Source: Candidatus Zixiibacteriota bacterium
Lineage (GTDB): Bacteria > Zixibacteria > MSB-5A5 > GN15 > FEB-12
Reading direction: 5' to 3'
Assembly (NCBI GenBank): GCA_034003725.1
Contig: JAVEYB010000013.1
Span: forward strand, 1 to 64,000
DNA length: 64,000 nucleotides
Part shown: positions 20,179 through 20,824 of the stretch, one piece after another
Position numbering within the stretch: the stretch's first letter is position 1
Layout: the number at the start of each line of letters is the position of its first letter
Made by a program: the position numbers and the translations under genes
The notes under the pieces: generated by a model
Databases searched by the model: none
Told to the model about the DNA's origin: nothing
The model's input: the letters and a program-made list of their open reading frames with translations, nothing else

Positions 20179-20230
20179 GCCGCCTTCGGGTGCGCTGTGC
20201 GGGATACAACCGGGTGCGAGGAGGAGCGCG

Positions 20231-20824
20231 ATAGGAGCGAGAGGGTTTAACGCGGAGTTTGTCGGCTCGTTTTTCGACATGCAGCAGATTCCGGTGGATC
20301 GGCGACCGCATGTCGCGCTGGCCGGACGGTCCAATGTCGGAAAGTCATCGCTGCTCAACCGCCTGGTCGGTCGCAGGGGGCTGGCCAAGGTATCGGGGAC
20401 GCCCGGCAAAACGCGCTCGCTGAATTTCTTCCTCGTGAACGGGGCGTTTTACCTGGTGGACCTGCCCGGCTACGGATACGCCCGGGTGGCGAAAGAGATC
20501 AAGGAATCATGGGGCAGGATGATCGAAACGTATCTGCGCACGTCGACCGCCCTCGCGGGCCTGATACTGCTGATTGACAGCCGTCGGGAACCCACACCGG
20601 AAGACGTTCAGCTTCTCGACTGGCTCGCCGCCCGCGAGGTGCCCGCCCTAATCGCGCTGACGAAAGCGGACAAGCTGACACGCAGTCAGCTCGGTCGGCA
20701 GGAGGCGCACCTTGAGCGGGACCTGGGGTTGTCGGCGATCGTGACGTCGGTCAAGACCGGCGTCGGCAAACTCGAATTGCAGCGCGCGATTACCGAACTG
20801 GTAGAAGATTTCACAGTACGCTGA
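20231..20824 (+). CDS. engB: Ribosome-biogenesis GTP-binding protein EngB/YsxC
   Basis: Essential GTPase for large ribosomal subunit assembly. G1 [10 protein letters not shown]2 region with GTPGKT, G3 DLPGYG, G4 TKADK, G5 SVKTG. The first ATG (20279) begins too late: the frame upstream still encodes family sequence ([11 protein letters not shown] before MQQIP), which lines up with the FVMSAPD-type N-terminus of YihA. No ATG, GTG or TTG lies between there and the lon stop. An ATA at 20231 sits six bases after a near-perfect GAGGAGGAG, so an AUA start is inferred, giving 197 aa. If that is wrong, 20279 is the fallback. Confidence 0.92.

Follow-up and report, generated by a model that had tools for sequence, protein, structure and literature searches.

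The engB Locus

The window, the 64,000-nucleotide stretch of a Candidatus Zixiibacteriota genome analyzed here, carries lon, engB, and purA in that order (table 1), an arrangement kept among relatives wherever the fetched sequences extend to the neighboring genes. The ribosome-assembly gene engB encodes a member of the EngB/YihA/YsxC family of GTPases, matching the TIGR03598 profile over its full length (profile positions 1–185 of 186) with a score of 205 bits against a curated cut-off of 124. The open frame spans positions 20114–20824 of the forward strand, with the stop codon at 20822–20824, and contains no ATG, GTG, or TTG before the ATG at 20279, so that, just as the first-pass annotation had stated, no canonical start separates the end of lon from the conserved N-terminal strand. 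That annotation proposed that engB starts at an AUA codon well placed behind a Shine–Dalgarno (SD) sequence. The ATA at 20231 is in frame with the engB stop and lies six bases after the AGGAGG (20219–20224) within GAGGAGGAG (20218–20226), and the predicted anti-SD pairing at this site is the strongest of the engB set.

Table 1. Features of the engB locus and of the lpd and murE genes of the same genome (G000).
Feature	Position	Strand	Remarks
lon, upstream of engB	17749..20178	+	Start codon approximate; stop 52 nt before AUA
Shine–Dalgarno AGGAGGAG	20219..20226	+	From sequence; predicted anti-SD pairing −11.8 kcal/mol
AUA start codon of engB	20231..20233	+	In frame; same codon ATA in G001 and ATT in G002; no canonical alternative
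engB (YihA/YsxC GTPase)	20231..20824	+	197 aa counted from AUA; TIGR03598, PDB relatives
First in-frame ATG, not start	20279..20281	+	Within conserved domain; no SD; TTA at that place in G002
purA, downstream of engB	20838..22112	+	Ordinary ATG; served as control, with ATG at aligned codon in ~41/44 genomes
lpd	L282:964-2361 (G000:C1)	−	ATG-TAA start-stop pair beside SD, before gene
murE	L333:6669-8147 (G000:C1)	−	AUH start conserved in family

Family sequence does extend upstream of the first ATG, as had been claimed from the sequence of this locus. Counted from the ATA, residue 8 of the protein pairs with the first position of TIGR03598, and solved EngB/YsxC chains in the PDB align from residues 7–9, so that a start at ATG 20279 would remove conserved sequence. 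Translation from that ATG, with the upstream similarity a leftover or noncoding, is nevertheless the reading that a canonical codon would favor, 20279 being the first such codon in the frame and the same-genus genome G001 also having ATG at this place. However, it would require initiation at a codon without an SD (energy only −1.7) and the loss of residues conserved in both the profile and the structures, and a further member of the genus, G002, has TTA there; we consider it very unlikely.

Conservation in close relatives, which the first-pass annotation had named as a check, bears out the AUA start. In G001 this codon is likewise ATA and follows AGGAGG; a single GTG stands in frame seven codons before it. 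G002 has ATT there, preceded immediately by in-frame stops, and has no canonical option. Because these relatives have ATA or ATT at this codon, a sequencing or assembly error that converted an ATG or GTG to ATA at 20231 has practically no likelihood, even though the source genome is a draft assembly; ATA or ATT recurs in independent genomes, and in eleven genomes no canonical option exists. Frameshifting or readthrough from lon, or from a small upstream frame, might also supply the EngB N-terminus in place of initiation at AUA, and by eye a small GTG frame (20190–20234) does terminate at a TAG sharing bases with the ATA, giving ATAG. Against this, a stop lying one to three codons ahead of the AUH codon (AUA, AUU, or AUC) closes the engB frame in G002, G029, G069, and G034, lon ends roughly 40–105 nt upstream, and no shared slippery site was seen by eye, making this route extremely improbable.

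engB Start Codons across the Family

The family sample comprised 54 genomes, assemblies that are probably mostly metagenome-derived, and engB was found in 48 of them. In 11 genomes representing eight genera, the engB frame offers no canonical codon on the way from the upstream stop to the conserved strand, and all 11 genes have an AUH codon 8–10 codons before a conserved Phe, with SD pairing of −5.6 kcal/mol or better. By background frequency, each gene has a 1.2% chance of showing an AUH codon with an SD of similar quality in the three codon slots concerned, and coincidence is negligible even if each genus is counted as one event. Six further engB genes, that of G001 included, combine AUH and a good SD with canonical codons that are only remote or weaker, giving AUH starts in about 17 of the 48 genomes and upholding the AUA start proposed for this locus. 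The AUH start is not universal for engB; the remaining members of the family have canonical starts, several with a weak SD, and in G012 an ATG nine codons upstream occupies the usual place of AUH. In a tree of Lon, EngB, and PurA, 16 of the AUH engB genes belong to a single 21-row group with moderate support (SH-aLRT 87), G025 standing separately, and at least six start changes are needed.

Outside the family, the engB start is canonical in all 21 genes from sister families f2–f4 and in 42 of 43 others of the class, and a canonical codon is in range in 76 of 76 engB genes from other phyla. The exception within the class is G081 (family f5, L274), in which engB has ATC behind a weak SD where its relatives have ATG or GTG, possibly an independent case. 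Separately, no engB match above threshold was found in G015, a genome rated 100% complete, or in any of the four genomes of family f12, pointing to a possible loss of this usually essential GTPase.

AUH Starts in infC, lpd, and murE

AUA starts are very rare, and the AUU start of infC is the known precedent in ribosome biology for a regulated rare start. To our knowledge, conserved starts other than AUG, GUG, and UUG have been recognized outside infC in only a handful of bacterial genes. The infC parallel, already drawn in the first-pass annotation, turned out to hold within these same genomes, in which infC starts with AUA (35) or AUC (6) behind a strong SD in 41 of 41 genomes of the order examined. 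Nor is the AUH start a one-gene oddity, as lpd and murE, whose identities were confirmed against NCBIfam, have AUH starts across the family. A scan of the genome's own sequence (∼390 predicted genes, 504 kb) pointed to lpd, encoding dihydrolipoyl dehydrogenase, which has AUH at the same codon behind a GGAG-type SD in 30 of 30 family orthologs (L302–L331), 20 of them lacking canonical codons ahead of the FAD-binding motif. When 183 ortholog pairs of this genome and G001 were compared, murE emerged as a further case; its family orthologs (L349–L378) have AUH in 29 cases, GTG in one, and AUG in none of the 30. In sister family f4, murE starts with ATG behind a weak SD in 12 of 12 genomes, and the more distant lpd type found there has ATG in all 14. 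Standard gene calling admits only ATG, GTG, and TTG, so proteins started from AUH are expected to be truncated or misplaced.

Convincing AUH calls were made for 4 of the 183 ortholog pairs (about 2%, a rough figure), one of them genus-specific. A control pair from the same phylum but outside the family (G115/G114) gave no AUH calls, among only 37 ortholog pairs; in an earlier control with 73 ORF pairs, shadow frames and overlapping genes muddled the outcome, and the pairs were checked by eye. The genus-specific case at C13:79559 (L163:15559-16164, forward strand) is a 202-amino-acid ORF that apparently starts at ATC behind GGAGGAG in both this genome and G001; it has no family match, relatives were not found beyond the genus, and it is only a candidate. 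Other flagged positions were set aside: C7:17232-18746 of this genome, flagged for AUA/AUC, was rejected because its protein begins further on, at an ATG that opens a signal peptide, and the AUH codons at C1:17167 and at two C7 candidates from single-genome scans look internal to a coding frame.

Decoding of AUH and Avoidance of AUG

Among the tRNA genes found, there is one of initiator type, with the anticodon CAU, and no unusual initiator was detected. Reading of AUH codons therefore involves a mismatch at the third base. RNA editing fails to account for the AUH set because A-to-I editing cannot turn AUU or AUC into AUG, and predicted folding of the AUH start regions revealed no common element. 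engB has the features expected of an infC-type start, namely a noncanonical codon without a usable alternative, a strong and well-spaced SD, conservation (about 17 of 48 engB genes, and family-wide in lpd and murE), and an ordinary initiator tRNA.

On the tree, the third base of the infC, lpd, and murE start codons has switched between A, C, and T in at least 22 instances but never to G, which argues for selection against AUG, although the count is approximate given its dependence on parsimony and on the choice of genes. An alternative is that AUH starts are real but neutral, a strong SD having permitted decay of the start codon with no regulatory role. AUH codons do accompany strong SDs and engB starts do vary across the family, but AUG has been avoided through many changes of the third base and AUH retained family-wide in lpd and murE. 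Both observations speak for selection of a weak start, and we think neutrality unlikely. Position, conservation, missing alternatives, SD context, AUG avoidance, and the ordinary tRNA set together give strong support to the AUH start sites, and the sequence comparisons suggest that, across this whole family, certain genes are deliberately kept on weak start codons.

Possible Control by IF3

We predict that the strong SD places the AUA at 20231 in the P site, selecting it as the near-cognate start of engB, and that the normal initiator fMet-tRNA(CAU) reads it with a third-base mismatch. AUH starts are a stable trait of several growth genes in this Zixibacteria family, namely infC, lpd, and murE, with engB joining them in one clade. 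The weak codon would limit initiation and make it dependent on discrimination by IF3, as for infC of E. coli, in which case the output of AUH genes would track the supply of IF3 versus 30S subunits, rising under a shortage of IF3 and falling under a surplus. We hold this reading as a whole, with a probable IF3-sensitive step of initiation, to be highly likely.

IF3 represses the noncanonical starts of infC and sigR (PMC5472188) and disfavors third-base mismatches in vitro (PMC10158994), and by analogy with these data, the AUH genes are probably under IF3 control. With infC, which is autoregulated translationally from AUU, AUA, or AUC in E. coli, Streptomyces, and S. aureus, engB has in common an AUH codon, a strong SD, and the third-base mismatch. 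IF3 is not, however, the product of engB, lpd, or murE, and therefore any control would act on a target rather than as self-feedback. In this they resemble sigR of Streptomyces, a non-IF3 gene with a conserved start drifting among weak codons behind AGGAGGTG, although sigR uses GTC or GTT rather than AUH, is a single gene, and has been shown experimentally in Streptomyces to be under IF3 control (PMC5472188). The ccpN (AUA) and cvfC1 (AUU) genes of S. aureus likewise have conserved AUH codons with extended SDs, and AUA/AUU starts give about 10% of AUG expression in that organism, these two genes included; they differ from engB in phylum and gene, and their starts were mapped by initiation profiling (PMC13009471). 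Among open-licence papers, we found no report of noncanonical starts in engB, ysxC, or yihA, or of such starts in Zixibacteria.

The significance of these findings lies in several essential or central genes sharing AUH starts across one family, with AUG avoided, a gene set that makes the level of IF3 testable as a general regulator beyond infC. More tentatively, and at somewhat less than even likelihood in our judgment, the AUH starts may define an IF3-sensed regulon made up of a fixed gene set, perhaps dozens strong (extrapolating from about 2% of those sampled), that would include infC, engB, murE, and lpd. If so, ribosome assembly, cell-wall synthesis, and central metabolism in this family would follow the ratio of IF3 to ribosomes.
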